From Longimicrobiales bacterium (GTDB lineage Bacteria > Gemmatimonadota > Gemmatimonadetes > Longimicrobiales > Gaopeijiaceae): a DNA stretch of 64,000 nt. Of the stretch, positions 1,934 through 19,340 are shown in pieces (within the stretch, counting starts at the first letter, position 1; each line of letters opens with the position of its first letter). The notes under the pieces are model-generated. The model had not been told where the DNA came from and searched no databases. It was given only the letters and a program-made list of their open reading frames with translations. The translations under genes were made by a program, and so were the position numbers. The stretch is taken from positions 124,001-188,000 of the forward strand of contig JAQWPM010000022.1 in the NCBI GenBank assembly GCA_029245345.1, in the 5' to 3' direction.

Positions 1934-2047
1934 GGTCGTTACCGCATGGGTCTGTACATCAAAGACGTCCGCGGGGATCTGATTGTTGAGGAATCGCGCC
2001 GTATACGCCAGGGTGTGGATCTCGACGCTCGGAGACTCCCGATGGGT

Positions 2048-2977: not shown

Positions 2978-3945
2978 CGATGCGTTCCTTGAGATTCAAG
3001 CCTACGGGCACCCTCGACACTCGCTAGGAGGTCAGCGCCGTCTTCGGGATCCATAATAGAGAGGGCCGACGCCAGAACGTCGGCTGTCGTGCCGTTCGGG
3101 GCCAGCACTGTCACGGTCGGCACATCGACCACGCCCAACCCGGTCCTCGGGTCCACGATATGCGAGTACTTCACGCCATCGACCTCCAGGTACCGGAACC
3201 GATCCCCGGACGTCGCTACCGCCCCATGGGCCAGTAGCAGGACAGCACCGTTCGAGCCGCTGACACGCCATCCATCAGTACCGGGCGGAGCCGCGCCGGC
3301 TACCAAATCACCACCGGCGTCGATCAACGCCGCCTCGACACCGTAGCCAGCTAAGATGGCCAGCATCACATCGCCCGCGAACCCTTTTGCAATGCCGCCC
3401 AGGTCCAGTGACATGCCTGATCGCACTAACGCCACCCCACCCGAAGGCTCGACACGTAGGCCTTCGAAACCGACTCGGGACTTCGCTTCGTGGAGACGTG
3501 ACGAATCTGGTAGCTCGCCTCGGCGCGCCGACCAACGCCACAGTTTCGTGAGTGGGCCTAGCGTAGGGTCGAACGCTCCGCCACTTCGTTCGGCCCAACG
3601 GACGGCCTCCGTCAGCAAGCTCGTCAGCTCAGGGCTCGCCACGTGCAACGCACCCGAACCGGCCCTCGCCGCGACTTCTGCGATTTCACTGTCATCGCGG
3701 TAGTCGCTGAAGAGCGAGTCGAGGCGGGCGAGTGCCGCGAAGGTCGAACGCGCGGCGGCGTCAGCAGCCTGAGCGCCTGAGGCGTAGAACACGATTCGGA
3801 ACTCCGTCCCCATATGCACTTCGGAGAATTCGAACCGTTCAGGAGTCTGGGCGGCCAGCCCATCCGCCCCCAGCAGTCCGAACACAAATGCGAAAGCCGC
3901 GACCAGACTGGCCACGGCCCTCGCGCTGCTACGTGGAAGAATCAC
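2974..3945 (-). CDS. apbE: FAD:protein FMN transferase (ApbE family)
   Basis: ApbE transfers FMN from FAD to a Ser or Thr of extracytosolic flavoproteins. The 323-residue product has an N-terminal signal (hydrophobic to about residue 32, ending LAAQ). It shows the family hallmarks in order: HMGTEFRI, FDPTLGPLTKLW, SLDLGGIAKGFAGD, LIDAGGDLVAG, VATSGD, HIVDPRTG, and a late TTADVLASALSI segment with the metal-binding Asp. Length is normal for the family. It follows a Tat-exported Gfo/Idh gene after 12 bases and overlaps the Hyi-like gene. No FMN-binding-domain or Na+-NQR/Rnf partner is visible in this window, so its target protein is unknown. Confidence 0.9.
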   Translation of the reverse strand: MILPRSSARAVASLVAAFAFVFGLLGADGLAAQTPERFEFSEVHMGTEFRIVFYASGAQAADAAARSTFAALARLDSLFSDYRDDSEIAEVAARAGSGALHVASPELTSLLTEAVRWAERSGGAFDPTLGPLTKLWRWSARRGELPDSSRLHEAKSRVGFEGLRVEPSGGVALVRSGMSLDLGGIAKGFAGDVMLAILAGYGVEAALIDAGGDLVAGAAPPGTDGWRVSGSNGAVLLLAHGAVATSGDRFRYLEVDGVKYSHIVDPRTGLGVVDVPTVTVLAPNGTTADVLASALSIMDPEDGADLLASVEGARRLESQGTHR

Positions 3946-3957
3946 CAGATTCTCGCG

Positions 3958-5274
3958 CTAGTACGCCCGCGTGACTCCAGGAGTTGGAATCGCGTAGCGA
4001 CCATGCGCGTCGGGCATCACCGGCGGGTTCGCGTCGAATGCATACGTAGTCGGCATGATACTGAGGTCCGAATTCAGTGCCTCTTCCCACTCGATCATCT
4101 GACCGGAATACGTCGCCATCCGACCGAAGATTGCGGTCATGGTGGCGGTCGCACCACGCTCGGCGTCGGCGTACTTGTACTCTCCCGCCGCGATGGCGGC
4201 GAAGAGCTCGTCATGCTCGACCTGATATGGGTTCGGGTCCCCCTCGGCATCGTGTTCGAACAACGTATGCCCGGAGTTCGACTTCAGCAGACCCGGCCTT
4301 GGTGCCGTTCCGTTCGTGCCGTGGAAGGCCTCCGAGACCCGCCGCATCGTGTCCGGCTGGTGCCGGCACTGACTGAGGACACGTGCACCACCTTCGTACT
4401 CCAACTCGACCATGTGATGATCGAAGATCTCGCCGTGGTCGATGCCGTTCCGGATCTGGCGACCACCCTGACCCTGGGCACGGACCGGATGTCCACCAAT
4501 GACCCAGTTGGCGACGTCCAGGTTGTGGATATGCTGTTCCACGATGTGGTCGCCGCACAGCCAGTTGAAGTAGTACCAGTTGCGCATCTGGTACTCCATC
4601 TCCGTCTGGCCTTCTTTGCGTTCGCGGACCCACACACCTCCGTCATTCCAGTAGACCCGGCCGAGGACCACATCCCCGATCATGCCCGCGTGAATCCGAT
4701 CCACCCATTCGGTATACACGGTCTGATAGTGGCGCTGCAGGCCCACAACCACGTTCAGCTTCTGCGCCTTGGCTTTCTCAGCCGCCGCAAGCACGGCACG
4801 GACCCCCGGCGCATCCGTCGCGACCGGCTTCTCCATGAAGATGTGTTTCCCCGCGTCTACAGCGGCGGCGAAATGAATCGGGCGGAACCCAGGCGGTGTG
4901 GCGATGAGAACGACGTCCACGAGCGGGATCAGCTTCTCATATGCATCGAACCCTGAGAAACGGTTGGCTTCGGGCACGTCGACCCGGGGACGGATGTCGA
5001 TCCCGTCTCCCCAGTCATCGCGGTCACCCGTGAGCGTCTGATAGCTCCGTTCGACGTTGTCGGCGAACGCGTCTGCCATCGCGACGAGCTTCACGTCTTG
5101 GCTCGTGCTGAGCGCCTGGAACGCGGCGCCGGTGCCCCGGCCGCCACAACCAATGAGTCCGATCCGGAGAGCATCCGACGTAGGAGCCTGCGCCCGAAGC
5201 GGCGCTACACTGCTCAGCGATAGGCCGCCTACTGCCGCCGCGGTACTCGCTCTCATGAAGTCTCGCCTGTCCAT
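3958..5274 (-). CDS. Tat-exported Gfo/Idh/MocA family oxidoreductase
   Basis: This is a 438-residue NAD(P)-dependent sugar or polyol oxidoreductase of the glucose-fructose oxidoreductase type. A Tat signal (MDRRDFMRASTAAAV) is followed by a Rossmann motif (IGLIGCGGRGTG, about residues 38-49) and the family EKP motif in MEKPVATD. The C-terminal alpha/beta domain carries the substrate site. The start is backed by a strong GGGGGAG Shine-Dalgarno about 6 bases upstream. Tat export implies it folds around its cofactor in the cytosol, as known for Zymomonas GFOR. It sits 62 bases after the FGE-like gene and 12 bases before apbE, within the same minus-strand run. The substrate is not predictable from sequence alone. 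Confidence 0.88.
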   Translation of the reverse strand: MDRRDFMRASTAAAVGGLSLSSVAPLRAQAPTSDALRIGLIGCGGRGTGAAFQALSTSQDVKLVAMADAFADNVERSYQTLTGDRDDWGDGIDIRPRVDVPEANRFSGFDAYEKLIPLVDVVLIATPPGFRPIHFAAAVDAGKHIFMEKPVATDAPGVRAVLAAAEKAKAQKLNVVVGLQRHYQTVYTEWVDRIHAGMIGDVVLGRVYWNDGGVWVRERKEGQTEMEYQMRNWYYFNWLCGDHIVEQHIHNLDVANWVIGGHPVRAQGQGGRQIRNGIDHGEIFDHHMVELEYEGGARVLSQCRHQPDTMRRVSEAFHGTNGTAPRPGLLKSNSGHTLFEHDAEGDPNPYQVEHDELFAAIAAGEYKYADAERGATATMTAIFGRMATYSGQMIEWEEALNSDLSIMPTTYAFDANPPVMPDAHGRYAIPTPGVTRAY

Positions 5275-5336
5275 CTCATCTCTCCCCCGCTGCGATGCGG
5301 GTGCTCATTGTTTCCGATTACCGCGCGCGCAATGTA

Positions 5337-6275
5337 CTACGCGCCCAAAATTTCCGCCCAGTACGCGCGGATCTCATCCATCGTGTGTTCGCCTGACGGG
5401 GTCACCAACCGGAATCCCACATGTGGCGAATCGGTGTTCCACCAGCGGCTTTTCGGCATCTGTGGATCGCGTGCCTTCCATGCAGACGCCTCCGGGAATC
5501 GCTCCGCGCACCGGAGTCGATCGAGCGGATCGTCGAAGGCGCCGCCGCGGACGAGGCCACGGCCACGGGCGGGAGTCCCGTTTAGAGGATCCTGGGCACC
5601 CTCTCCTAGGGAGGCGTACGCATCGGCTGAATAACTGTCCATGACCCACTCGGCGACATTTCCTTGCAGCTCGTGGATCCCCAGACCGTCCGCGGACGCG
5701 GTCCCGGCCGCATGGTACACACCTCCGCTGTTGTTCTCGTACCAGGGCTCCCCCGCCAGCACTCCACCGCCTGCTTTGCAGGCGTACTCCCACTCTGCCT
5801 CAGTCGGGAGTCGATACAGCTGCCCGGTCTTCTCCGACAGCCACCTCGCAAAACGCAGCGCGGAGAGGCGTGTCATGCCCGTCACCGGGAAGCCATTCCC
5901 TCCCATTCCGTGTGCAGGGTCTTCGTACGGCGGGCTAGGCCGGGTGATCGCATCGGCATCGAAGAGCACATCTCCCGGCGCGGCGATGTTGTCGTCCAAG
6001 CGACGGAATCGGAAGACAGCAAAGGCGTCATAGGTGGCTTCCGTGGTGCTCATCCAGAAGGCCGACAGCCGTACCGTGCGCTGGGGGCCCTCATCGTCGT
6101 CGCGGCCGGCCTCGTTGTCTGAAGACCCGATCAAAAATGACCCGGCCGGGACGAACGCGAGATCGAACGTCACCTCAGTGCCCGGGATGCTCTCGGTCCT
6201 GAGATCTCCTGCGCTCTGCGCGCTTACTTGGGCCACGCTGACCACTGAGCACGCCAGGACCAGCGCACTTCTCAC
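5337..6275 (-). CDS. Secreted FGE/SUMF1-fold protein lacking the formylglycine cysteines
   Basis: The 312-residue protein has a signal peptide ([20 protein letters not shown]). It then shows the sulfatase-modifying-factor fold: FVPAGSFLIGS, the RLPTEAEWEYACKAG core, GNVAEWVMD, a LVRGGAF segment and a terminal VGFRLV. True formylglycine-generating enzymes carry two redox cysteines between the RGG and the RCA(A/E)R segments. Here that stretch reads DDPLDRL with no Cys, although RCAER is kept, so sulfatase activation is unlikely. Family relatives without these cysteines do other jobs or act as binding domains. The ATG overlaps the stop of the small membrane gene upstream by 4 bases. No sulfatase is seen in the window. 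Confidence 0.82.
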   Translation of the reverse strand: MRSALVLACSVVSVAQVSAQSAGDLRTESIPGTEVTFDLAFVPAGSFLIGSSDNEAGRDDDEGPQRTVRLSAFWMSTTEATYDAFAVFRFRRLDDNIAAPGDVLFDADAITRPSPPYEDPAHGMGGNGFPVTGMTRLSALRFARWLSEKTGQLYRLPTEAEWEYACKAGGGVLAGEPWYENNSGGVYHAAGTASADGLGIHELQGNVAEWVMDSYSADAYASLGEGAQDPLNGTPARGRGLVRGGAFDDPLDRLRCAERFPEASAWKARDPQMPKSRWWNTDSPHVGFRLVTPSGEHTMDEIRAYWAEILGA

Positions 6276-6586
6276 GCAGGGTCCTCCGCGGGCGGGGCGG
6301 GTTCTGGGGTGGCGGGCTCAATCGCGGAACTGGCAGCACTCGACTTCGCCAACGCAGACCTCGCTTCCGGCGCGTGCAGTTCATTGAAGAAGCTGAGATC
6401 GTCCTCGACCCGCATCAGGCGTGTGGAGACGGCTTCTAGTTCCTCGCGTACGGCATGAAGGAGGAGATCCGAGTTACCGTCGCCACTCTCGATCTCCTTA
6501 TTGCGCCCGAACATGAACCAGCCCAGGCCGATCGAACTCCACACCGCAGTGAAAATGATGAGGATGAAGACTGCAAATTCACCCAT
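6272..6586 (-). CDS. Small membrane protein with a coiled-coil and Pro/Ala-rich tail
   Basis: The 104-residue product has one N-terminal transmembrane helix (about residues 4-26, [14 protein letters not shown]..). A charged helical stretch follows ([23 protein letters not shown]), then an Ala/Pro/Glu-rich tail. I chose the ATG at 6586 rather than an in-frame start 30 codons upstream because the longer version would run deep into the isomerase gene. With this start the overlap is only 8 bases. The layout (one helix then a short coiled coil) resembles PspB-like membrane anchors, but I cannot assign it to a family. It is coupled on both sides, to the isomerase upstream and the FGE-like gene downstream, so it probably serves the same operon. 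Confidence 0.7.
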
Positions 6587-7589
6587 TCTTACCCTCAGCA
6601 AAGGCTGCATCAAAGGCGGCACCCGAAGCTGGGAAGTCCATGGAGTGAACGAAGTCACATGCTTCCTCCGCCCCATGTTCCCGATCCATCCCCGAATCCT
6701 CCCACTCTACAGAGAGCGGGCCGTCGTACCCTACGCGGTTGAGCGCCCTTAAGATTTCCTCGAACGGCACATGCCCGCGACCAAGTGACCTGAAATCCCA
6801 GAAGCGGTCTTTGTGCCCGAACGGGAGGTGCCCCCCGAAGACCCCGGACCGCATGGGCTGATCGGAAAACCACACGTCCTTCATGTGCACGTGGTAGATA
6901 CGCTCTGCGAACGAGTCGATGAATCCGACGACGTCGACTCCCTGATAGGCCAAGTGACTCGGGTCGTAGTTGAAGCCAAACGCCTCTCGATGATCGAGAG
7001 CATCCAGCGCGCGTTCCGCGGTGCTGATGTCGAATGCGATCTCCGTGGGATGCACCTCCAACGCGAACCGGACACCCACTTCATCGAACACATCGAGAAT
7101 GGGGTTCCAGCGATCTGCAAAATCCTCGAACCCCTCGTCGATCATTGCGGGGGTCACCGGAGGAAACGCATACAGGAGATGCCAGATGGCACTGCCCGTG
7201 AATCCGTTCACCACCTCAACGCCCAGATTCGCGGCGGCGCGGGCGGTCAGCTTCATCTCTTCCGCAGCGCGGCCACGCACACCCTCGGAATCCCCGTCAC
7301 CCCACACATGGGCAGGAAGGATCGATTCGTGCCGGTCGTCGATGATGTCGCACACGGCCTGGCCGACCAGGTGATTGCTGATCGCGAATACATCCAGTCC
7401 GTGAGACTGAAGCATCTCACGTTGAGCGACACAGTAGCTGGGATCGTCCGCGGCCCGAACCACATCAAAGTGATCGCCCCAGCAGGCCAACTCGAGGCCA
7501 TCGTATCCCCACGCTGCAGCCTTCTCTGCCAGTTCAGAAAGAGGGAGATCGGCCCACTGGCCTGTGAAGAGTGTGACGGGTCTGCTCAT
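6579..7589 (-). CDS. Cytosolic sugar phosphate isomerase/epimerase (TIM barrel)
   Basis: This is a 336-residue protein of the xylose isomerase-like TIM-barrel family (IolE/IolI/YcjR-type). Marks include [15 protein letters not shown] near the N-terminus, a central [13 protein letters not shown] strand with a metal-binding Glu, [21 protein letters not shown] and a late [12 protein letters not shown]. These supply the expected Glu, Asp, His and Glu metal ligands. No signal peptide is present, unlike its two exported paralogues in this window. The start at 7589 gives a 4-base ATGA overlap with the Gfo/Idh gene; an upstream start would add 12 residues inside that gene. Pairing with a cytosolic Gfo/Idh enzyme is the usual context for oxidised-sugar catabolism. 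The substrate is unknown. Confidence 0.87.
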
Positions 7590-8731
7590 GACGTTGCCGG
7601 TGGTGAATACGCGGCCGCAACCCACTGACCCTCTTTGTGGCTCGCGACCGCGGAGTGAATGAAATGAACTCCGTGGGCTCCGTCTTGTACGGACGGAAAA
7701 TCACCGCCCGTCACACCCGATTCGATCGCGATCGCTGCATTCCGGTACACGTTGGCGAAAGCCTCTATGAAGCCCTCCGGGTGTCCGCCGGGGAGCCGAG
7801 TATGCTCAACCGCCGCCGCAGAGAGATCTCCCGCACCTCGAAACAAGACGCGCTCAGACCCATCCGGACTGATCAAACGCAGGCGGTTCGGATCCTCCTG
7901 TGACCAATCCAAGGCACCTTCGCTTCCGTAGACACGCAGGCGCAGGTGATTTCGTTCACCGGTCGCAATCTGTGAAGCGAAGAGCAGACCGCGCACACCT
8001 CCATCCAACTCCAGAAGAACCGTAGCGTCGTCATCAAGTTCACGACCCTCAACCACCGTACCGAGGTCAGCAAAGAGCCGTTGGACTTCGAGGCCGGTGA
8101 CGTACCGCACGAGGTTGTGCGCGTGCGACCCGATGTCCCCGAGGACCGCAGACGGGCCGCCCTGCTCCGGGTCACTTCTCCACGACGCCTGCTTCTGCCC
8201 TTCCGCTTCAAGAAGCGTGGACAGCCATCCCTGTGAGTACTCGACCACCACCTTCCGTACCGATCCGATTTCACCAGCCTGAATCCGTGCTCGGGCCTCC
8301 TTCACCATCGGATACCCGGTGTAGTTGTGGGTCAGCGCGAATACGAGCCCGCTCTCCGCAGCGAGAGCACACAGGTGCTCCGCGTCGGCAAGAGTCGTCG
8401 TGAGCGGCTTATCACACACGACATGGATACCGTGCTCGAGAAACGTCTTGGCGATGGGATAGTGGAGATGATTCGGCGTCACGATCGCTACGACCTGAAT
8501 GCGACTGTTTGCCCCCAATGCGGCCTCCGCCGTGGCCATCTGTTCATAGGAGCCGTAGACCCGATCCGGACTCAGCTCCAAATCGTCTCCCGTCTCTCGG
8601 GACTTCGTTTCGTCTGAAGAGAATGCACCCGCAACGAGTTCGTACCGTCCGTCGAGCCGAGCTGCCATTCGGTGGACCGCGCCAATGAAGGCCCCTGGGC
8701 CACCCCCTACCATGCCGAGACGGAGCTTCAC
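7586..8731 (-). CDS. Cytosolic Gfo/Idh/MocA family oxidoreductase
   Basis: A 381-residue NAD(P)-dependent dehydrogenase. The Rossmann motif ([12 protein letters not shown]) begins at residue 6, with [14 protein letters not shown] and CDKPLTTT (a DKP variant of the EKP motif) following. The C-terminal substrate domain runs from about residue 140. No export signal is present. It overlaps the MFS gene before it and the isomerase gene after it by 4 bases each, which suggests stoichiometric expression. The likely role is oxidation or reduction of a sugar or inositol derivative imported by the neighbouring permease. Which direction it works in cannot be read from sequence. Confidence 0.9.
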
Positions 8732-10182
8732 CCGTCGGCCTCGATCGACTCGACCCGGTAGCCCCCGGTCCTTCGGTCACGCATATAAAGCGCTCCGAAA
8801 ATCAACATGAGGATGCCACACAACGGGACCATATACCGGAAGGAGATCTTCCCTCCGTAGTTGTCCGCGGGCCCTAGAATCGCTTGCGCCTGTCCAATCA
8901 AATCCGCGTCGGCATCTGAAGCGATAATGGACCGAAGCGCATTCGCGGTAGCCGGCGCGGGAAGCAAACCGGACACTTCAAATTCCTGAACCACCCCTTC
9001 TGCGGCGCTCACCGCCGCCTGGGCATCCGGGTCTTGGCTGTTGCCCAACACCATGGCTGTGCGTTCGAGCACAACAGTGACCTCTGCAGCCGGAATCTGA
9101 TCATGGGCGTACTCGTCTGCGATCCGTCCCATTTGTGGAGCAGCGACGAGTCCGACAGTCGCCATACCCACCGTTCCCATTAGGCCGAGTCCGAGCGCGC
9201 CGCTCTTCGGCACTCTCTCGGAAACAACACCCAGCATGGTCGGCCAGAAGTAACAAACGCCGAGCGCGAACACGGTCGCGGCACCGAAGACGGCGATGCC
9301 GCTCGACACATAGCTCAGCGCGAGCAACCCGACACCGGCCAGCACCGCAGAACCCAACAGCACGCCGGTTGGCGAGAGCTTGTGAACAACCGCCCCTGCC
9401 CGATACCGCATGACTGCCATGAGTCCATTGATCCAGACGAGGACCAAGATCCCGGCCATCCCGCCGGCCTCGAGCACCGCCGGCACCCAACGATTGGGGC
9501 CCAGCTCGACGGAAGCGGTCATGGTCATCGCAATCAGCATGACGAGCATGAGCGGAGTCGTGAACGCGGCCTTGAAGGCCTCACCCAAGCTCACGCCCGC
9601 TTGCACTCCCTCGGTAACCGGGAACGGCTCGCGCAACAGCAGGAAGCCATACGACAAGGTCGGGATCAACACCAACCCAATCTTGACCTGCCAGGCACCG
9701 ACACCGATCGCATCGAGTCCAAAAGCAGCGAGTCCTCCAATCACCACTCCACCCGGGAACCACACATGGAACTGGTTCAGCTTTACCGTCTTGTTGTCAG
9801 GATACAGTGCCGCCACCAGAGGATTGCACGCCGCCTCGACAAGGCCATTCCCCATCGCGATCACGAGCGCGCCCGCGAATAGGGTGGAGAATCCGGTCGC
9901 GAAGATCATGACGAGAGCACCCGCCAGGTGAGCGACGAACGACATTCGCAGCAGCGCACGCATCCCGATGGAATCCGCGAGTGGAGCAAACGCCAGCTGG
10001 GAGAGTGCGAAGCCCCACAACGCAGCCCCTCCGATCCAGCCAACCTCTTCGTTGGTGAGCACGAACTCACGCTTGAGCGCGAGCATAATCGCGCCGACGG
10101 TCGCGAACGCGACGGATGTTGCGACGAGCGCGACACAGCTCCCTAAGAACAGTCGGGAGGAATTCACATTGGAGTCGGTCAT
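8728..10182 (-). CDS. MFS permease, FHS-like sugar transporter
   Basis: The 484-residue protein has about 12 hydrophobic helices. The segment GNGLVEAACNPLVAALYPDNKTVKLNQFHVWFPGG recalls the fucose/glucose:H+ symporter (FHS) branch, where a Gly-x-x-Glu-x-x-x-x-Asn-Pro stretch and a following Leu-Asn motif are typical. It is unusual in having an extra hydrophilic loop of roughly 90 residues before the last helix (DEYAHDQIPAAEVTV to QAILGPADN), probably periplasmic. Genes for cytosolic Gfo/Idh and isomerase enzymes follow with overlaps, so it probably imports their substrate. It starts 24 bases after the small dehydrogenase subunit gene. Assignment to the MFS is firm; FHS is a judgement from motifs. 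Confidence 0.85.
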   Translation of the reverse strand: MTDSNVNSSRLFLGSCVALVATSVAFATVGAIMLALKREFVLTNEEVGWIGGAALWGFALSQLAFAPLADSIGMRALLRMSFVAHLAGALVMIFATGFSTLFAGALVIAMGNGLVEAACNPLVAALYPDNKTVKLNQFHVWFPGGVVIGGLAAFGLDAIGVGAWQVKIGLVLIPTLSYGFLLLREPFPVTEGVQAGVSLGEAFKAAFTTPLMLVMLIAMTMTASVELGPNRWVPAVLEAGGMAGILVLVWINGLMAVMRYRAGAVVHKLSPTGVLLGSAVLAGVGLLALSYVSSGIAVFGAATVFALGVCYFWPTMLGVVSERVPKSGALGLGLMGTVGMATVGLVAAPQMGRIADEYAHDQIPAAEVTVVLERTAMVLGNSQDPDAQAAVSAAEGVVQEFEVSGLLPAPATANALRSIIASDADADLIGQAQAILGPADNYGGKISFRYMVPLCGILMLIFGALYMRDRRTGGYRVESIEADG

Positions 10183-10206
10183 TTTTGTCGGATTGAGAGG
10201 AGGGTC

Positions 10207-10902
10207 CTAAGCGAGCCCCAAATGCTGCAACACTTCCGTCGGCGGTGGATCCCACTGCGTGAGCGGGATGTTTCCGATGTATTCTAGGTCGGTCATCCCT
10301 TCCGTGGTCGTCCAAAAAGCGGTCGACGTGAGAAAGCGCACGCGGTCGAAGAAGCGGGCGCCCGCCTCTAGCCCGTCCGGGGTGTTGGGCAGATAGCATA
10401 TGTCGTCACAGATCGCCGTCTTCTGCGCACCCGACAGATCACGGAAGCGCATTCCTTCGCCGAAACGGGTCGTGGACTCTCGATCGAGCCACACGAGTCC
10501 CCCTCGAATGAGCACACCATCTCGCTCGTTGCCGTCGTACGGGGCGCTCACCCACTCGTCGATAAAATCCTGCGCACCGACAGAACTCGCCGAGGGAGAA
10601 CGGTCATCGGCGGGAATGATGACGTCACAGATCGTGGCCAGACCTTCGAGTTCGTCGTCGGTGAGCGTGCGGTCCCAAGGCACGATCGGGGCGACCAAGT
10701 CCGGGTCCCACGCGTTGCCCTTCGCCTTCGGATTCGTTGGAGGAGCTGGAGCGATGGCCACATCCAGCGATGGTTCACCGGGATCACAACCCGTGATCGT
10801 GGGGACAGCCGCCGCGATCGCCATGATCTTGAGCGCCTGCCGGCGGTCCATATCCATATTCCCAACGATAGGGAGTTCGAAGCGCTTCTTGTCCTTGGAC
10901 AT
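10207..10902 (-). CDS. Gluconate 2-dehydrogenase subunit 3-like protein (Tat lipoprotein)
   Basis: The 231-residue product has a late twin-arginine motif (MDRRQALKIMAIAAAVP) followed by a lipobox (TITGC), so it is probably a Tat-exported lipoprotein. The body matches the small 'subunit 3' family that pairs with GMC-type flavoprotein dehydrogenases (LTDDELEGLATICDVIIPADDRSPSASS, then DLSGAQKTAICDDICY). In this family the small subunit carries the export signal and brings its folded flavoprotein partner along. The GMC gene just upstream has no signal peptide of its own, which fits. The two genes share a TGATG stop/start junction. Confidence 0.85.
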   Translation of the reverse strand: MSKDKKRFELPIVGNMDMDRRQALKIMAIAAAVPTITGCDPGEPSLDVAIAPAPPTNPKAKGNAWDPDLVAPIVPWDRTLTDDELEGLATICDVIIPADDRSPSASSVGAQDFIDEWVSAPYDGNERDGVLIRGGLVWLDRESTTRFGEGMRFRDLSGAQKTAICDDICYLPNTPDGLEAGARFFDRVRFLTSTAFWTTTEGMTDLEYIGNIPLTQWDPPPTEVLQHLGLA

Positions 10903-12686
10903 CAGAGGCTCCTCGACGCGAGTTGTTCGACGATGTAGTCAGAAGCCCGCCACGCGATGGCCATGATCGAAAGCGTCGGATTCTTGTCTGCATTGGACAC
11001 GAATGCACCGCCATCGGTCACGAATAGATTGTCGACCTCCCAAGACTGGCAGTACTCGTTGAGCACCGAGCTCTCGGGTTCCGCACCCATGATGACGCCG
11101 CCCACTTCGTGGATGATCACACCCGGAGCGGCGATGGCGTCCGCTCCGTCCTCCTGAACCGTGCCCGTCACGTTGCCACCCATCGACTCGATGATGTCTG
11201 CGAAGGTGCGCTGCATGTGACGCGCCTGGTTCAGTTCGTGATCCGACCACTTCCAGTGGAATTGCAGTGTTGGAATGCCCCACTGGTCCACCGTCCCGCT
11301 CGGGTCGATCTCGGCGTAACAATCCTCGTTCGGGATCATCTCGCCGCGGCCGGCGAAGTACATAAAGGAGCCGTAGTAGCGACGGCAATCCTCCTTGAAC
11401 TGCGTCCCGTACGAGCCGTCCGTGAAGTCCGCGAGGCCGCCCATGAAGCCGAACCCAGGAGCGCCGCGTCCACCACCGAATTCGATGTGATAGCCACGGG
11501 CGAAATCCAACTCCCCTCGGTCCTGCTGCTGATAGAGCCACCAAGGCATATACAGATGCATGGCTGATGCACCGTCGTTGTTGTGCGGTGGCATGTTCTC
11601 GAGCGCCGGGATCTGTCCACCCAGGCCGGCCCCGACGGTGTCCATGATGTACTTCCCGACGTTGCCGCTGCCGTTGCCGATACCGTCTGGGAACTGACTG
11701 CTCTTCGAATTGAGCAGGATACGCGCGGACTCACAAGCACTGGCCGCCACAATCACGACCCGCGCGCTCGCATGCTCTTCTAATCGCGTCGTTTTATCGA
11801 TGTAGTGCACGCCGGTCGCCTTGCCCTGCGCGTTTACAGTGACCTCACGAACCATCGCGTCTGTGATGATGTCGAGATTCCCAGTCGCGAGCGCCGGAGG
11901 CAGCAGCACCGTGGGCGACTGAAAGTTCGCCTTGATGGAGCAGCCGCGTCCGCACGGCGTTGCGAAGAAGCAGGCGGCACGTGACCGCATGGAGTCAGCC
12001 GTGACACGTTGGGCCAACTGGTTGTTGGGCCACAGGATCTGGGACAACCTGTCCGCGTCTTGGCGTTCGGTGAGAATCGCGAGATGCGCGGGGATGACGG
12101 GGATGTCGAGGTCCTGACAATGATGCTGCGTGAGCATTTCGTTCGCGCGTGCCGCAGGTGCCGGCTGAAGCACGCCAGGCGAAGAGCTCGGCGTGTTCTC
12201 TAAGCCCTCGTTGGAGCCATAGACACCAATCAGCATCTCAGTTTTGTCGTAGTAAGGCTCAACGTCCTGGTACGACATGGGCCAATCGAAGCCGAGTCCG
12301 TCACGCTGGCGGGGCTTGTAGTCGTATTCACCCATGCGCAGGGAGATGCGGCCCCAGTGGTTGGTACGACCACCCAACATGCGTGCGCGCCACCACTGGA
12401 AATCCGTCCCTTCCGCGCTGGAGTAGGGTTCGCCCGGCACCTCCCACCCGCCGTCCACGGTTGCGTCATAGAAGCCGAAGGGCTTCTCCGGGGTGCCAGC
12501 GCCGCGCATGGGAGCATCCTTCGGCATCTGGAACATTGGCGTCTCGGTGACAGGGTCGTAGTCGCGACCCGCCTCGAGCATGAGGACCTTCACTCCGGAG
12601 CACGCCAGGACGTAGGCACACATGCCGCCCGCGGCGCCCGATCCCACGATGATGACGTCGTAGTCTTGCTGGGCCTTTTTACGCAT
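10902..12686 (-). CDS. GMC family FAD-dependent oxidoreductase (large subunit)
   Basis: A 594-residue flavoprotein of the glucose-methanol-choline family. The FAD-binding motif VIIVGSGAAGGMCAYVL lies near residue 11. The C-terminal part has HEVGGVIMG and a terminal NADKNPTLSIMAIAWRASDYI, supplying the expected His-Asn catalytic pair. The start at 12686 is preceded by GAGGCGGT, a better ribosome site than the TTG codon 42 bases upstream. It has no signal peptide and is coupled to a Tat-bearing subunit 3 gene. Characterised relatives oxidise sugars, glycosides (glucoside 3-dehydrogenase) or gluconate in the periplasm and pass electrons to a cytochrome or quinone. The cognate cytochrome is not in this window. 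Confidence 0.9.
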   Translation of the reverse strand: MRKKAQQDYDVIIVGSGAAGGMCAYVLACSGVKVLMLEAGRDYDPVTETPMFQMPKDAPMRGAGTPEKPFGFYDATVDGGWEVPGEPYSSAEGTDFQWWRARMLGGRTNHWGRISLRMGEYDYKPRQRDGLGFDWPMSYQDVEPYYDKTEMLIGVYGSNEGLENTPSSSPGVLQPAPAARANEMLTQHHCQDLDIPVIPAHLAILTERQDADRLSQILWPNNQLAQRVTADSMRSRAACFFATPCGRGCSIKANFQSPTVLLPPALATGNLDIITDAMVREVTVNAQGKATGVHYIDKTTRLEEHASARVVIVAASACESARILLNSKSSQFPDGIGNGSGNVGKYIMDTVGAGLGGQIPALENMPPHNNDGASAMHLYMPWWLYQQQDRGELDFARGYHIEFGGGRGAPGFGFMGGLADFTDGSYGTQFKEDCRRYYGSFMYFAGRGEMIPNEDCYAEIDPSGTVDQWGIPTLQFHWKWSDHELNQARHMQRTFADIIESMGGNVTGTVQEDGADAIAAPGVIIHEVGGVIMGAEPESSVLNEYCQSWEVDNLFVTDGGAFVSNADKNPTLSIMAIAWRASDYIVEQLASRSL

Positions 12687-12771
12687 ACCGCCTCGCCATC
12701 TCGCTGATTCGGAACCCCATCTGGTCAAGATGACAACTTAGGCGTGGGGCGGCGTTACGCTACGCATTCGG

Positions 12772-14007
12772 CTAAGAAATCGGCCTCTGTCCGGGCCAGT
12801 CACCTCGCTGCACGATCACCTTACCGTCGCTCACAACCATCAGCACATCCTGCACGACTCCGATGTCCTCCAAAGGATTACGCTCGAGGACGATGAGGTC
12901 GGCTTGCATGCCCTGGGAGAGCGTGCCGACATCGGTCAACCCGAAGAGTTCAGCGGCCGTGGTCGTTGCCGCACGCAACGCCTCCAGTGGAGACATCCCG
13001 ATACCCACCAATTCGAGGAGTTCGTGCGCCAATGTCGTCGTGCTCTCCGGTCCGTACCCCGTGTCAGTCGCGGCGACGATCTTCACACCCAACCGGTGTG
13101 CATTGGCCGCCATCTCTTGCACGCGTGGAAGCATGTGTCGCCCGCGGATGTTGAGGGGCGCGTTGTCGTAGTCCCCGCCGGGAATCGTCAGATCTCGTAC
13201 GATCGCAATCGTCGGCACGAGGTAAGTCCCTCGTTCGACCATCATCCCGAGCGTCTCAGGGCTTAGGTACGTGCCATGTTCGATGCTCCGGACTCCAGCT
13301 ACGACAGCGTCCCGTCCACCCGCGTCACCGTGGGCGTGTGCAGAGACTCCGATACCCCCTACCGCTGCCTCCTCGACGATCGCGCGTAACTCCGCCTGCG
13401 AGTAGAACTGCTTCCTCGGATCGGTATTGGGCAGACCGGCTCGCTCGGTGGCATTGGTCTTCACGAAGTCCACGCCGCGCGACACGAGAGCTCGGGTCAT
13501 CGCCCGCACCGCAGCATCTCCCTGGATCGGCTTACCGTACAGGTCGCCGAGCTCTGGGTGATCCTGGAAGAAGGCCTCTGCGGCCGGCGGCCTCACGTGA
13601 TATCCAGCTGCCAAATACTGCGGGGCCTCGAGATGTCCGGCCGCCTGTAGCTCACGCATACCCACATCGGCGTAGTGGGAAGTGCCCATGCTTCTCATGG
13701 TCGTCACCCCGGAAAGAAGCGCACGGCGAGCATCGGCCGCGTTCCCGACGTGGACGTGAGCGTCCATCAAACCCGGCGCGATATAACGCCCCATCACATC
13801 GATCACCGTGACACCCGACGCGGGCTGAGCGCCGCCCCTCGTGATGCTGACAATTTGGCCGTCGCTCATGGCCACCGTGGAGAGCGCGCTGACCTCCCCT
13901 GTCACGACGTCCACGACATGGGCGTTGGTGAGTACGAGGTCCTGCGCCGCAAGAGTGCCTACCGAGGCAAGGAGAGAGATCGCGATCAGAAGAGAGGTGC
14001 TGCGCAT
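12772..14007 (-). CDS. Secreted metal-dependent amidohydrolase (imidazolonepropionase/prolidase-like)
   Basis: The 411-residue product starts with a signal peptide (MRSTSLLIAISLLASVGTLAAQ). I chose this start because the preceding 33 in-frame codons do not look coding. The amidohydrolase superfamily ligands are visible in order: HVH in GLMDAHVHVG, a carbamylatable Lys in GVDFVKTNAT, His in SAHAHGD, His in SIEHGTYL and Asp in AATDTGYG. This is the binuclear metal pattern of the Xaa-Pro dipeptidase/imidazolonepropionase-like group. It probably acts on amide or lactam bonds in the periplasm. It stands alone between the GMC operon and the DUF1080 trio, 150 bases from the latter. The substrate cannot be read from the sequence. 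Confidence 0.88.
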   Translation of the reverse strand: MRSTSLLIAISLLASVGTLAAQDLVLTNAHVVDVVTGEVSALSTVAMSDGQIVSITRGGAQPASGVTVIDVMGRYIAPGLMDAHVHVGNAADARRALLSGVTTMRSMGTSHYADVGMRELQAAGHLEAPQYLAAGYHVRPPAAEAFFQDHPELGDLYGKPIQGDAAVRAMTRALVSRGVDFVKTNATERAGLPNTDPRKQFYSQAELRAIVEEAAVGGIGVSAHAHGDAGGRDAVVAGVRSIEHGTYLSPETLGMMVERGTYLVPTIAIVRDLTIPGGDYDNAPLNIRGRHMLPRVQEMAANAHRLGVKIVAATDTGYGPESTTTLAHELLELVGIGMSPLEALRAATTTAAELFGLTDVGTLSQGMQADLIVLERNPLEDIGVVQDVLMVVSDGKVIVQRGDWPGQRPIS

Positions 14008-14993: not shown

Positions 14994-15682
14994 CTCAAGT
15001 CTCGGATCTTCACGTTTCGGTACCAGACACGGTTGCCGTGATCCTGGAATCCGATGTGGCCGCGGTCCGCCTGACCGTACGCCGGCCATTCGTTGAATTT
15101 GCTGTTCGCTACGAGTTCAGACCAACCCGCGCTGCCGAACTCGTACGCGACGATCTTCGTCCCGTTCAGCCAGTGCTCCACGGCTGAACCACGCACGACG
15201 ATCTTTGCCGAATTCCATTCCCCGGCACCATTCACGATGCCACGTGGGGCCGGATAGAGACCATAATTGGATCCGGCGCTGGTCAGAGGATTCTGACCAT
15301 CACGATGGGCGGCATCATCGAGTACCTGCATCTCGGGCGCGCTGTGGTAGACCCACTCTTCCCCTAGCGCGGCTCGGTAAAAGACGCCGCTGTTGCCACC
15401 GGCTTCGACCATCCATTCCAGCGAGAGTTCGAAGTCGGTGTACGCGTCGTCTGTGATGATGTCGCGCCCACCGGAGGTATGGGTCAGCATACCCCCCTCG
15501 ACGGCCCAACCATCGGTCATCGGCTCACCGTCGTACCGGCGCCATCCATCGAGCGTCTGTCCATCGAAGAGCAGCTCCCATCCAGCTTCCCGCTCGGCGG
15601 CATTGAGCGTGTTGTGCGTTTGCGCAGCCGCAGGTGCACCGACCAGCAGCGCCGCCAGGATCGTGAGGAAAACTCTACGCAT
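14990..15682 (-). CDS. Secreted DUF1080 (3-keto-disaccharide hydrolase family) protein
   Basis: The 230-residue product has a signal peptide ([21 protein letters not shown]) and one DUF1080 domain with a concanavalin-like jelly roll. Marks are WELLFDGQTLDGWRRYDG, a central GGNSGVFYRA, EMQVLDD and the terminal GHIGFQDHGNRVWYRNVKIRDL, the family signature. DUF1080 proteins have been shown to cleave 3-keto-glycosides made by Gfo/Idh or GMC dehydrogenases. Start choice: an ATG at 15682 forms a TGATG junction with the gene upstream; one four codons earlier (15694) is also possible. Both neighbours are Tat-exported, so the trio probably works in the periplasm. Confidence 0.88.
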   Translation of the reverse strand: MRRVFLTILAALLVGAPAAAQTHNTLNAAEREAGWELLFDGQTLDGWRRYDGEPMTDGWAVEGGMLTHTSGGRDIITDDAYTDFELSLEWMVEAGGNSGVFYRAALGEEWVYHSAPEMQVLDDAAHRDGQNPLTSAGSNYGLYPAPRGIVNGAGEWNSAKIVVRGSAVEHWLNGTKIVAYEFGSAGWSELVANSKFNEWPAYGQADRGHIGFQDHGNRVWYRNVKIRDLR

Positions 15683-17172
15683 CAGATCGCCCATCCTTCG
15701 CGGTATTCGCGCACGAGGTACTCGTTCGCTTTTTCGGAATTGGTGACGCGCATGTTTTCGGCGTCATATCGGATCTTGAACCCTTGGCCAGTGCGGAGCG
15801 CTACGATCCCAAGGAGCATGGTCTCGGTAAGCGGAGCCGCATAGGAGAACGGGCACGTCGCTTCCCCGATGCCCTTACAGGCATTCGCCCAATTCATCTC
15901 GTGGCTGTCCTCGATGCGGAGGTAGCTCTGTGGCACCGCGGCGGCCTCTTCGTTCAGCGCCTCCGGGTAGAGTCGGGGATTCCGACCGTATGTGTTGTGC
16001 ATCAAGATCCCACGTTCACCGACGAAGATCACACCACCCTCACGGTTCAATCGAACGTCATCCGGCAGGTGTTCCGGCCGCTTCGGCATAAGGCCACCGT
16101 CGTACCAGTGGAGGTCGACCTCGGGGAGCAGACCCCGACGCGGAAACTCGTAGTGCACCTTGGTCGCCATCGGGTATGAGACCGGGTTGTCTTCCGGGCC
16201 ACCCCATGGCGTCGACGTGGCCTCGATCGCAGTCGGCAGGCCGAGATCGAGCGCCCACACGGGGTGGTCGATGAGGTGTGCGCCCATATCACCCAGCGCG
16301 CCGACCCCGAAGTCCGTCCAACCGCGCCAATGGAAGGGATGGTAAATCGGGTGATAGTCCACCGATTGTGCGTTAGACGCCCGATAAAGGTCCCAATCCA
16401 GCCCCGCAGGCACCGCGAAGTCTCCGTGTAGGCCCGTGGCATGAGCGGCCTGGATGGATCCGGGCCACCATGACCGGTCTGTCGAGTTCGGGTCGAAGTC
16501 CTCCGGGAATGGAGCCGGCCGCAACAATCCCTGCGACCAAATCGGTCGATTCGTCCACACGTGGACCTCGTGCACGTTCCCGATCACGCCTGCCTGAATC
16601 CACTCATTCAGAAGTCTCGCGTCGTCGCCGGAGTGTCCCTGGTTCCCCATCTGAGTCACGACACCGGTCGACTCCGCCAACTCCTGGAGGACCCGCGCTT
16701 CGTGAACTGTGTAAGTGAGCGGCTTTTGGCAGTAGACATGTTTGCCCGCACGCATCGCGGCAGCAGCGATCGCTGCGTGCGCGTGGTCAGGCGTTGCAAT
16801 GAGAACCGCCTCGATGTCCGGCATCTCGTCCAACATGACTCGGAAGTCCGAGAACTTCCGGGCAGCATTGAACTGTTCCCGCCAGCGGATGCCCTTCTCG
16901 CGTGGCATCCCCTCTCCGTCGGGCTCGGCTTCTTCGGCCGCCCTGCGCGCGACGAAATCCATATCCACGTCGCAGACGGCGATGATGTTCTCCGAACCCA
17001 ATTCCCGGGCGTTCCCGTTGCCCATCCCGCCAGCGCCTACGATCGCGATGTTGAGCGTGTCGCTCGGGGCCTGGTAACCGACCCCGCCCAGCACCTTCCG
17101 AGGCACGATCATGGCGCCCATCGCGAGCTTGGAACTGCTGGATACAAAGTTTCTGCGTGTTATATCCGTCAT
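15682..17172 (-). CDS. Tat-exported Gfo/Idh/MocA family oxidoreductase
   Basis: A 496-residue oxidoreductase, long for the family. It has a Tat signal ([21 protein letters not shown]), a Rossmann motif ([18 protein letters not shown], about residues 43-60), [16 protein letters not shown] and [13 protein letters not shown], where Gln replaces the Glu of the EKP motif as often seen in exported members. The C-terminal domain from about 175 is rich in Trp and His ([18 protein letters not shown]). The start at 17172 is preferred because the eight codons before it add nothing recognisable. It is first in the trio with DUF1080 and an exported isomerase, and it borders the low-GC patch. Confidence 0.88.
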
Positions 17173-17288
17173 GCGCCCTATCCCCTTGTCTTGCAACGCT
17201 TTAGCATATTCGATGGCATAGGGTCAAGCGGGTTAACACCATGTCTACTGCCAACCAAAGCTCATCCATCTTCATACTACGAGTGGAT

Positions 17289-17507
17289 CTACCCTGCGGC
17301 CACAGATCCACACATTTGGCATTTCTTCGTAGCCCTTCCGACGCCGAGTTCCTTCTTCACTTGGCTATACGTGAATCTGTGTGTTTTCAACAAATATTTC
17401 ACCTTCCTTAGATCATCTGCTTTCTCCTTGGCCACAACGGCTTCCCGCTGCTTTTTCAGGTTCTCAATCTGCGTGTCTAGTTCTTCTAGCATTTTGTTAT
17501 TCGCCAT
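17289..17507 (-). CDS. Small coiled-coil protein, H-NS/HvrA N-terminus-like
   Basis: A 72-residue protein inside a low-GC patch. The start at 17507 is supported by GAGGAG 8 bases upstream and by a promoter at 17557-17584. Residues 5-48 (MLEELDTQIENLKKQREAVV and onward to LLKTHRFTYSQVKKELG) look like the oligomerisation segment plus linker of H-NS/HvrA-type proteins. The AT-hook-like DNA-binding C-terminus of that family is missing; instead it ends KKCQMCGSVAAG with a CxxC pair. It could be a truncated silencer-like modulator or an unrelated helical protein. Resemblance is by eye only. Base composition differs sharply from the flanking genes. Confidence 0.5.
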   Translation of the reverse strand: MANNKMLEELDTQIENLKKQREAVVAKEKADDLRKVKYLLKTHRFTYSQVKKELGVGRATKKCQMCGSVAAG

Positions 17508-17556
17508 CCAACTAACTCCTCGGTTGATAATCATTTGTAAAAGGACAGGCGGCACC

Positions 17557-17584
17557 TTTATAGTGCTTACGTATTTTGCTCCAA
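17557..17584 (-). promoter_or_regulatory. Sigma-70-like promoter for the small coiled-coil gene
   Basis: On the minus strand there is TTGGAG (17584-17579), a 16-base spacer and TATAAA (17562-17557). Transcription would start near 17550, leaving a leader of about 43 bases before the SD and ATG at 17507. Both boxes are close to consensus. Confidence 0.55.
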
Positions 17585-17661
17585 TCCAAAATATCTATAT
17601 GTGGGATTGCATCCAGTTTCTAGGCGTCAGGGGCGTTGCTCTTAGGAAAAGAATGATACGG

Positions 17662-17675
17662 TTCTGATTTCAGAA
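17662..17675. promoter_or_regulatory. Candidate operator palindrome TTCTGATTTCAGAA
   Basis: Two inverted 6-base arms (TTCTGA and TCAGAA) are separated by TT. The site lies 29 bases upstream of the small plus-strand gene and between it and the divergent coiled-coil gene. This is a typical place for a dimeric repressor site. No helix-turn-helix gene is recognised nearby. Confidence 0.35.
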
Positions 17676-17704
17676 TAGGATCACTGCACCTAAGAGCTAA
17701 CACG

Positions 17705-17932
17705 ATGACTTACCCAGCACACATAAATACGAAGCGAGGACTCTGGTATATACCCAGCAAGTACCAATTTGAATCCAAGGCAGAAAAAGATGATCTAATG
17801 AGTATTACTAATCAAGTGATGCTTCTACGCTCTAAACGGCCAAGTCACCTTACTATGATTGAATTCACTCAGTCATGGAACAACGACACAATATTCACAT
17901 TAGTTGAAGACGGTAGAGCAAGAATGATCTGA
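17705..17932 (+). CDS. Small hypothetical protein in the low-GC patch
   Basis: An open frame of 75 codons beginning MTYPAHINTKRGLWYIPSKY and ending VEDGRARMI. It is not hydrophobic, has no signal peptide, and mixes basic and acidic residues. I recognise no family. An AAGAG about 11 bases upstream is a weak ribosome site. A palindrome lies 29 bases before the ATG. The frame is transcribed divergently from the coiled-coil gene. Its base composition (low GC) matches the patch and not the flanks. It may be a real accessory gene or a chance frame. Confidence 0.4.
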   Translation: MTYPAHINTKRGLWYIPSKYQFESKAEKDDLMSITNQVMLLRSKRPSHLTMIEFTQSWNNDTIFTLVEDGRARMI

Positions 17933-18231
17933 AAGAATGAACACACTTGGCTTTCATCATAACTTCATCCCATTTCTGTGTTATTGAAGGACCTGAATCA
18001 GGACCAAGTCAGCTATTGAAGTAGCTAGCTTATGAAAGGGGCCATGCAATCAGTTAGGGGATCCGGCATCATGTATGGAGTCTGTGAGGAGACGAGCAGA
18101 AATCAGACTAGAGATGGGCATCTGGAATCAATAAAGACTGGTGGCACCGTAAGGGTCATCGGTCCACGTTTAGATACATCAGTAAATGTCTGAACGCACT
18201 TATCGTGATGGTGGCTTAGTAAAGCAGGTCT
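17933..18231. other. Low-GC stretch without a convincing gene
   Basis: This 299-base interval continues the low-GC composition. One frame of 53 codons (18032-18193, plus strand, MKGAMQSVRGSGIMYGVCEE and on) is open but has no good ribosome site or recognisable domain. No tRNA, inverted terminal repeat, integrase fragment or direct-repeat att site was seen at the patch edges. Confidence 0.5.
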
Positions 18232-18642
18232 TTATTCTTCTTTTTTCTTCCAAAAGAACTCCAGTACCCGAACCTCCAGATTGAGCGTTCTCCTTTCAAC
18301 CAATTCATTCAAGGCGATCTTGAGGCCGATCGTTCCGCCCTCCCCCATCTTCCACAGGGACCGTCGGTCACCGGTTATGGATTCGGTGAACTCTCCGGCA
18401 GGAGCAGCGTGCTCGATTGCCTTCGCAGCGTCCGTGATCCTCCGCTCGGAAGCTCCGCCGATGTCCTGATACGTCAGAATCCGGCGGAGAACGTTTTCGG
18501 CGACATCACCATGCAGCTCCCAGACCTTCTCCGGCGTCCACGGATCCCACCGCTGGCAAGGGATGTCCACCCAAGACCGCACATCCTCGCCACGAATCGG
18601 ATAGGTCCGCCATCCTAGGTCGTACCGGAGGGCGCGGAGCAT
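18232..18642 (-). CDS. Hypothetical protein, possibly a truncated gene
   Basis: A 136-residue frame beginning MLRALRYDLGWRTYPIRGED and ending VLEFFWKKKEE. It has many Trp and charged residues, no signal peptide and no membrane helix. I recognise no family. In the same frame immediately upstream of the ATG, the codons read stop-Cys-Pro-Tyr-Cys-Lys-Ser-Met, so a CPYC motif sits between a TGA (18663-18661) and the first ATG. Either the true protein starts at 18642 and the motif is chance, or the gene has lost its 5' part. Base composition is intermediate between the low-GC patch and the chromosome. Confidence 0.5.
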   Translation of the reverse strand: MLRALRYDLGWRTYPIRGEDVRSWVDIPCQRWDPWTPEKVWELHGDVAENVLRRILTYQDIGGASERRITDAAKAIEHAAPAGEFTESITGDRRSLWKMGEGGTIGLKIALNELVERRTLNLEVRVLEFFWKKKEE

Positions 18643-18833
18643 ACTTTTGCAGTACGGGCATCACGCACGTGCCAGGCAGCCCAGCCGGAGGCGAGAGCCT
18701 CCATCCCCACGGCAACCCAGAGGTCGGCAGTCCCGACAGCTTTCGTGTCGAACTGGGTTAACGCGGGCTCGCTGATCCGTATGGTGGCGTCACGACCTGG
18801 ACGGGGACGGGACAATTAGGAAGTGACGCGGCG

Positions 18834-19340
18834 TTAGCTCCCCTCAGGAACGGCAGCGATACACTCCACTTCCACTCGCGCATCGAACGCGAGCCCGCGC
18901 ACGGACATCGCTGAGCGCGCGGGCGGATCGGATGGGAAATACTCGAGATACACCTCGTTGAACGGACCATAGTCGACCATGTCCGCCAAGAAGACAGTGC
19001 ATTTCACAACGTCTTCCCAGCCTACTCCTGCGGCTTCGAGACCCACATAGAGATTGTCCATAGCCAGTCGGGCTTCTGGGACGATGCCGCCCTCGATGAG
19101 CGTCGGAGGTAAGACGTTGGGCAAGGCGCCAATCGCGCCGGAGAGGAAGATGAGATTTCCGCTTCGGACCGCAGTGGAGAAAACCGGTAGCCGGGTCACT
19201 CCTTCGGGTTGAATGATCTCCTTCCGGGGCTTCGGGGCGGAAGCGGTTTCACTGTCCCGGTCGGCTCGCTCTTCCACAGTGCATCCTGCGGCGAGCAGTG
19301 CGAAAGCCATCATCCACGAAGTTGCATTCTTGAGCCGCAT
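18834..19340 (-). CDS. RidA-family (YjgF/UK114) lipoprotein
   Basis: A 168-residue protein with a lipoprotein signal (FALLAAGC, Cys at about residue 20) and a short linker. A RidA domain follows: FLSGAIGALP, the EARLAMDNLYVGLEAAGVGWEDVVKCTVFLADM core, PARSAMSVRGLAFDARVEVECIA. The conserved Arg of the PARS segment and the Glu of VEVECIA are kept, so deaminase activity on enamine/imine intermediates is plausible. Classical RidA is cytosolic, so anchoring in the envelope is noteworthy. Its ATG overlaps the stop of the amidohydrolase gene upstream (TGATG), suggesting that it clears a reactive imine made by that enzyme. Confidence 0.88.
   Translation of the reverse strand: MRLKNATSWMMAFALLAAGCTVEERADRDSETASAPKPRKEIIQPEGVTRLPVFSTAVRSGNLIFLSGAIGALPNVLPPTLIEGGIVPEARLAMDNLYVGLEAAGVGWEDVVKCTVFLADMVDYGPFNEVYLEYFPSDPPARSAMSVRGLAFDARVEVECIAAVPEGS

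Follow-up and report, generated by a model that had tools for sequence, protein, structure and literature searches.

An AT-rich remnant of probable foreign origin in a Longimicrobiales genome, with one possibly expressed coiled-coil frame

Composition and extent of the island

The AT-rich island characterized here is best explained as a foreign piece of DNA that is now mostly a functionless relic and from which one coiled-coil protein of 72 residues may be expressed, a reading to which we assign a probability of roughly 60%. The island lies within a 64-kb window taken from contig 22 (bases 124001-188000); the genome totals 3.79 Mb in 30 contigs and is 98.03% complete and 3.74% contaminated; all positions given below are those of the window. 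The G+C content of 17200-18240 is 43.4%, compared with 61.8 ± 1.6% (sd) and a minimum of 57.8% in the other 1,040-base segments. The drop is single and sharp, with the lowest-G+C segment of this length in the 64 kb beginning at 17221, so that the low-GC island of a preliminary description of this DNA is real and lies beyond chance. Its right end had been placed at 18640, which is too far by about 400 bases of ordinary composition (59-66% G+C in 18300-18640); the island ends at about 18231 (Table 1).

Island DNA is present in one copy only in its own genome. Searches against plasmids and phages returned merely matches of 31-35 bases (E 0.3-1). No 7-mer is common to the two edges (17150-17260 and 18180-18290) in either direct or inverted orientation, no tRNA was found in the 64-kb window, and neither a donor nor flanking repeats were found for the island. 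No mobility family scored over its cut-off in the 72-, 75- and 53-residue frames, PADLOC defence models gave 0 matches to the same three frames at E <= 10, and the one Rfam match in 17000-18900, at E 2.8, is noise. Orphan AT-rich insertions at rearrangement breakpoints form a general class with low G+C, orphan frames confined to a single species and no recognised mobility gene. The island is like these insertions, and its sole distinguishing feature is one possible H-NS-like frame.

Table 1. Features of the island and its flanks (positions in the window; strand left as a dot where the feature has none)
Feature	Position	Strand	Basis or remark
Gfo/Idh/MocA oxidoreductase gene, left border	15682..17172	-	ATG picked within ORF 15682-17196; family-conserved
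AT-rich island, about 43% G+C	17200..18231	.	composition; proteins without match in relatives; single copy
72-residue coiled-coil frame, possibly H-NS N-domain-like	17289..17507	-	H-NS profile, model, ribosome-binding site
AGGAG, ribosome-binding-site-like, of 72-residue frame	17516..17520	-	8 bases before ATG
Promoter-like TTGGAG-16-TATAAA, 8/12	17557..17584	-	chance level
Imperfect inverted repeat, 13-nt arms, 85% complementary	17582..17609	.	overlaps -35-like hexamer
Imperfect inverted repeat/hairpin, core TTCTGA-TT-TCAGAA	17635..17701	.	folding z, shuffles
75-residue open frame	17705..17932	+	no gene evidence: no SD-like site, codon phase, pLDDT
53-residue open frame, unusual codon phase	18032..18193	+	SD-like site not seen by eye
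Decayed fragment of longer gene	18232..18642	-	3' end cut near island edge
RidA-family gene (Ribonuc_L-PSP), right flank	18834..19340	-	

Gene order at the island

The Gfo/Idh/MocA protein on the left is 84% identical to its counterpart in G001, a genome of the same genus, and 65-79% identical to those of the seven further members of the family for which the match was long. On the right, the protein of the decayed gene is 67% identical to the G001 copy, which by eye extends further at both ends and is itself interrupted by a stop codon. An intact paralogue of 342 residues is encoded elsewhere in the genome (contig 19, L048; 41% identity over 95 residues). The decayed copy as a whole spans 18232-18815, and by eye its product has CxxC motifs and probably a segment that lies in the membrane. 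In comparison with G001, the protein alignment reaches the last residue of the fragment and the local nucleotide alignment stops near 18314; because the two end differently, the right edge of the island is placed between about 18231 and 18314.

Gene order was compared in 14 stretches from 11 genomes. The preliminary description had named presence of the island in all relatives as evidence against its interpretation; no copy was found in the relatives examined, and the lowest 400-base G+C content across 11 relative stretches is 56.2%. RidA lies within 1 kb of Gfo/Idh, with no AT-rich insert, in three of the nine Gfo/Idh stretches from relatives: the two alignments are at most 20 bases apart in G008, one gene separates them in G009, and the gap of about 960 bases in G006 has 65.4% G+C. 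The ancestral gene order is not certain, because no RidA was seen in the Gfo/Idh stretches examined from the other six. In G001, RidA and the decayed-gene side are on contig 42, which runs on into other genes, and Gfo/Idh starts close to one end of contig 74, preceded by other genes. The two flanks are thus on different contigs amid other genes, and gene order therefore changed at the island.

Deviant composition together with absence from close relatives, the combination by which acquired DNA is recognised, is found here. The earlier proposal that the island arrived by transfer agrees with its foreign-looking composition, the lack of a copy in relatives and the changed gene order. With a broken gene at its right edge, a composition and gene order that differ, and no copy in relatives, the island is probably a foreign remnant, an ordinary scrap of acquired DNA; its foreign source is what we infer from these observations. 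In the scheme that we propose, an AT-rich piece of about 1.03 kb would have entered the lineage where gene order changed, between the decaying gene beside RidA and the Gfo/Idh gene, and most of it would now be relic sequence without function.

Coding potential of the small frames

The 72-residue frame has an ATG and an AGGAG site and, judged from these, is probably translatable. The frame is as the preliminary description had it; the CxxC that was placed at its very end is a CQMC six residues short of the C terminus. An SD-like site is present at the 72-residue frame and absent at the 75-residue frame, and 8.3% of random frames (at least 60 residues) have one. For codon phase, 3495 random frames free of stop codons, each 60 codons or longer, served as the null. 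The score of the 72-residue frame was reached by 14% of these, that of the 75-residue frame by 27%, and that of the 53-residue frame by 0.9%, a figure that flatters the last frame because shorter frames vary more and the null frames are longer. These values replace earlier ones (p = 0.0475, 0.077 and 0.0075 for the 72-, 75- and 53-residue frames), for which the null had allowed stop codons. The longest ATG frame of the island, which is the 72-residue frame begun at an ATG further upstream, has 81 codons, and the second longest has 75. Of 300 dinucleotide-shuffled islands, 89 contained an ATG frame that reached 75 codons or more, and 15 also a second one of 72 codons or more; the lengths of the 72- and 75-residue frames are near chance. 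The predicted model of the 75-residue frame has a mean pLDDT of 49.8. What had been called a divergent 75-residue gene is confirmed as an open frame only; with no ribosome-binding site and a chance-like codon phase, it is not supported as a gene.

Relatives of the 72- and 75-residue proteins were found in none of the 38 near relatives and in none of the 394 other genomes of the phylum (a set that overlaps the 38). No relative was confirmed in viral contigs and GTDB genome contigs, where the scans reach close relatives only; the 53-residue frame likewise had none in viral contigs. Phages and plasmids gave nothing better than E 0.2 for the small proteins, and no small frame scored over a curated cut-off in Pfam, NCBIfam, PHROGs or PADLOC. 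Weak matches were seen to PF06673 (with an 88-residue reading from a GTG start at E 0.0023, with the 72-residue reading at 0.018), to Relaxase_C with the 72-residue protein (E 0.032, 14.9 bits; cut-off 30) and, in NCBIfam, to TIGR01209 (E 0.025). There were also 12 weak PHROG matches, which include phrog_14131, annotated 'DNA binding protein', with the 88-residue reading (E 0.0077), and a DNA transposition protein (E 0.086). The 75-residue frame had a weak match to a TNF family (E 0.091) and none to PDB sequences at E <= 10.

It is also possible, though unlikely, that the island holds no gene at all and is a non-coding AT-rich relic in which the 72-residue frame arose by chance in a purine-rich strand. 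Frame lengths within those of shuffled islands, a codon phase that 14% of random frames reach and the failure to find a relative of the frame are all consistent with this explanation. Against it, both the AGGAG at a fitting distance, with SD-like sites at 8.3% of random frames, and the result of the H-NS profile described below are uncommon by chance.

Resemblance of the 72-residue protein to H-NS

For a comparison with H-NS, a profile was built from 12 H-NS N-domains taken from plasmid-collection records. Two of five loci contributed to it (L073 and L075; L074 and L077 are absent and L076 is under the cut-off), together with 10 further sequences, which are 10 of 40 listed matches and were all used. 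The 72-residue protein scored 16.0 bits without bias correction on this profile; with 12 or 15 real N-domains in the profile, its score was 16.0-16.6 bits. None of 3000 composition shuffles and none of 3000 helix-only shuffles scored as high as 16.0 bits, and 1 of 3000 heptad-preserving shuffles did; slightly different shuffles gave 0, 0 and 1 of 2000. With bias correction, its 13.9 bits (E 0.0095) placed the protein first among 3780 open frames, drawn from the window and from large loci; the next frame scored 4.9 bits. The alignment to the H-NS N-terminal coiled-coil pattern covers residues 8-58. Three real H-NS N-parts from the phylum, identified through their PF00816 domain, scored much as the protein did, with 16.6-22.0 bits on the 12-sequence profile, and the profile members, left out in turn, scored 46.2-88.8 bits, far above the 16.0 bits of the 72-residue protein.

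Other comparisons were less favourable. A profile made only of the three phylum sequences gave the protein 3.2 bits, and 121 of 3000 composition shuffles did as well; BLAST against the three phylum N-parts returned no match; both results speak against kinship with H-NS. BLAST against one plasmid-collection H-NS gave E 0.42. Pfam H-NS_N did not match the protein; one real H-NS receives E 0.02 from this model, and another is not listed by it. A genome-wide search was performed with an alignment of 10 of the 12 N-parts, from which two near-copies had been left out. It did not report the 72-residue protein (41 candidates, 15 scored in its own genome) and found some match at E <= 1, of up to 19.9 bits, in 216 of 395 genomes. 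The resemblance to H-NS/HvrA that had been noted by eye is therefore better than that of shuffled sequence, yet marginal and within chance on the scale of whole genomes, as the profile, BLAST and genome-wide results together indicate.

A partner was searched for with PF00816, a search outside which Lsr2, MvaT and Rok fall. PF00816 had 0 matches in the 98.03% complete genome. Over its cut-off, it matched 3 of 395 phylum genomes and none of the other 392. The three proteins (L108, L109 and L110, from G262, G065 and G193) have long lysine/alanine-rich linkers, and their genomes belong to a single genus, which falls in a different family of the same class. The H-NS C-terminal DNA-binding domain scored at best 0.1 bits over the six frames of 17000-18300, which also ruled out a frameshifted H-NS C-terminus after the stop codon of the 72-residue frame (C-terminal profile <= 0.1 bits). 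The N-terminal coiled-coil pattern of PF00816 silencers (those of Burkholderiales-type plasmids and of the three phylum genomes) is what aligns with the 72-residue protein; the silencers differ in having a C-terminal DNA-binding domain of their own, which was found in no frame of 17000-18300.

H-NST, from the serU/IE3 and EARL islands of E. coli, is a short relative of H-NS that pairs with resident H-NS (PMC7074111). By analogy, the 72-residue protein would be a genuine N-domain of H-NS, able to form heterodimers with an H-NS of the host and to relieve silencing, an explanation that we regard as very unlikely. The profile score with its shuffles and the first rank among 3780 frames argue for it, as do the AT-richness of the island and the precedent of H-NST itself, which is likewise a short protein that resembles only the dimerisation/oligomerisation part of H-NS and is encoded in acquired DNA (PMC7074111). 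Against it are the lack of PF00816 in the genome and its presence over cut-off in so few genomes of the phylum, the genome-wide N-domain search that passed the protein over, and the 46-89 bits of real members when left out. The two cases also differ in that H-NST acts on resident H-NS from islands of more than 20 kb (PMC7074111), whereas the present island measures about 1 kb, no H-NS was found in its genome, and the protein is only marginally similar to H-NS in sequence. The frame is one possible H-NST-like gene. The preliminary description had suggested a dominant-negative modulator of silencing; with no PF00816 partner in the genome and no H-NS C-terminal remnant in the island, such control is left without a known target.

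Under the favoured reading, a foreign relic with one possibly expressed protein, the 72-residue protein may go back to a silencer of the H-NS type that the donor element carried, of which it would be the oligomerising N-terminal half. According to a single-sequence prediction, it would dimerise as a helical coiled coil through residues 3-42. With no H-NS found in the genome, the protein at present most likely plays no part in silencing. If it is active at all, its partners might be H-NS-type proteins that incoming elements encode, in the way that H-NST pairs with H-NS in E. coli. That it is an H-NST-like relative of H-NS, free of a DNA-binding domain, which from incoming AT-rich DNA disarms the silencers of competitors in a host without H-NS, in a phylum in which H-NS is rare, is a highly speculative extension to which we give hardly any weight. 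If the protein did work as a pairing domain of the H-NS type, this would point to anti-silencing proteins in a lineage in which no H-NS was found.

Predicted structure and helix-turn-helix signals

The single-sequence prediction for the 72-residue protein has helices at residues 3-42 and 47-54 and a mean pLDDT of 77.6; confidence drops after about residue 50 and is below 50 beyond residue 60. No H-NS entry was listed among the structure matches of the model. Foldseek placed a DeoR DNA-binding domain first (E 3.8), all other matches having E 3.8 or worse, and VIA-align gave a best Z of 5.8 to the Hop2-Mnd1 coiled coil, a value that is not meaningful for long helices. The best PDB sequence match by phmmer was the helix-turn-helix protein 9iaq (E 0.3). 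Weak tblastn matches, at E 0.2 and up, fell on the helix-turn-helix tips of sigma-54-regulator-like frames and on a protein annotated helix-turn-helix. These other signals weakly indicate a helix-turn-helix tip rather than H-NS.

An alternative in line with them, which we consider improbable, is a self-regulated module in which the 72-residue protein, a coiled-coil and helix-turn-helix repressor, would act on the repeats at 17582-17609 and 17635-17701 between divergent genes. The residues KELGVGRAT of the protein resemble helix-turn-helix tips, the weak matches from tblastn, phrog_14131, 9iaq and DeoR point the same way, and inverted repeats do lie between the frames, with hairpin z-scores down to -7.2 (below). 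None of these helix-turn-helix signals is significant in its own library, however, and Pfam lists no helix-turn-helix family; the second predicted helix has only eight residues, followed by the stretch of low confidence. The palindrome is not beyond chance once corrected for choice of the best place, and the 75-residue frame is unsupported as a gene.

Promoter-like site, inverted repeats and hairpins

The near-consensus promoter of the preliminary description matches 8 of 12 positions, which is at chance level. A scan for 9 of 12 positions, a threshold below which this site falls, found 2 other sites, compared with 2.0 expected from shuffles.

The TTCTGA-TT-TCAGAA palindrome is present between the frames, at 17662-17675, as the core of the longer repeat at 17635-17701. 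Against shuffles of its own 76 bases, the hairpin has a z-score of -4.9 as DNA and of -5.4 (+ strand) and -7.2 (- strand) as RNA. When whole islands were shuffled, 30 of 300 matched the island's best 76-base hairpin in stability, although the shuffled islands were scanned at coarser steps; the palindrome, confirmed as a sequence, is therefore at or near chance. With a promoter at chance as well and a 75-residue frame unsupported as a gene, the self-regulated module that had been described is not supported.

Among 170 sliding 80-base segments of 17000-18700, ten had z-scores below -2.5, with -4.28 at 18120-18199 and -3.63 at 17620-17699, whereas 200 control segments of the same length from 2000-14000 reached -3.19 at most. 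This contrast favours some real structure. The codon phase of the 53-residue frame and the two structured stretches exceed what a pure relic needs, and count against the explanation that we favour. As the evidence stands, the island is an orphan AT-rich scrap, and mainly illustrates the ease with which AT-rich DNA gives rise to short frames, promoter-like sites and palindromes.

A second folded stretch, 18125-18245, has z-scores of -3.0 to -3.5 by itself; it was set aside as a candidate, since 207 of 300 shuffled islands held a 121-base stretch equally stable. In integron attC sites the arm order is the reverse of GTT...AAC. The arms of the hairpin run GTT...AAC by eye, and an attC site was rejected on this ground. 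The 53-residue frame overlaps the most structured 80-base segment of the region, that at 18120-18199. The shorter repeat, CAATCC...GGATTG, sits on the -35-like hexamer of the 72-residue frame, the sort of place where a putative repressor site would lie.
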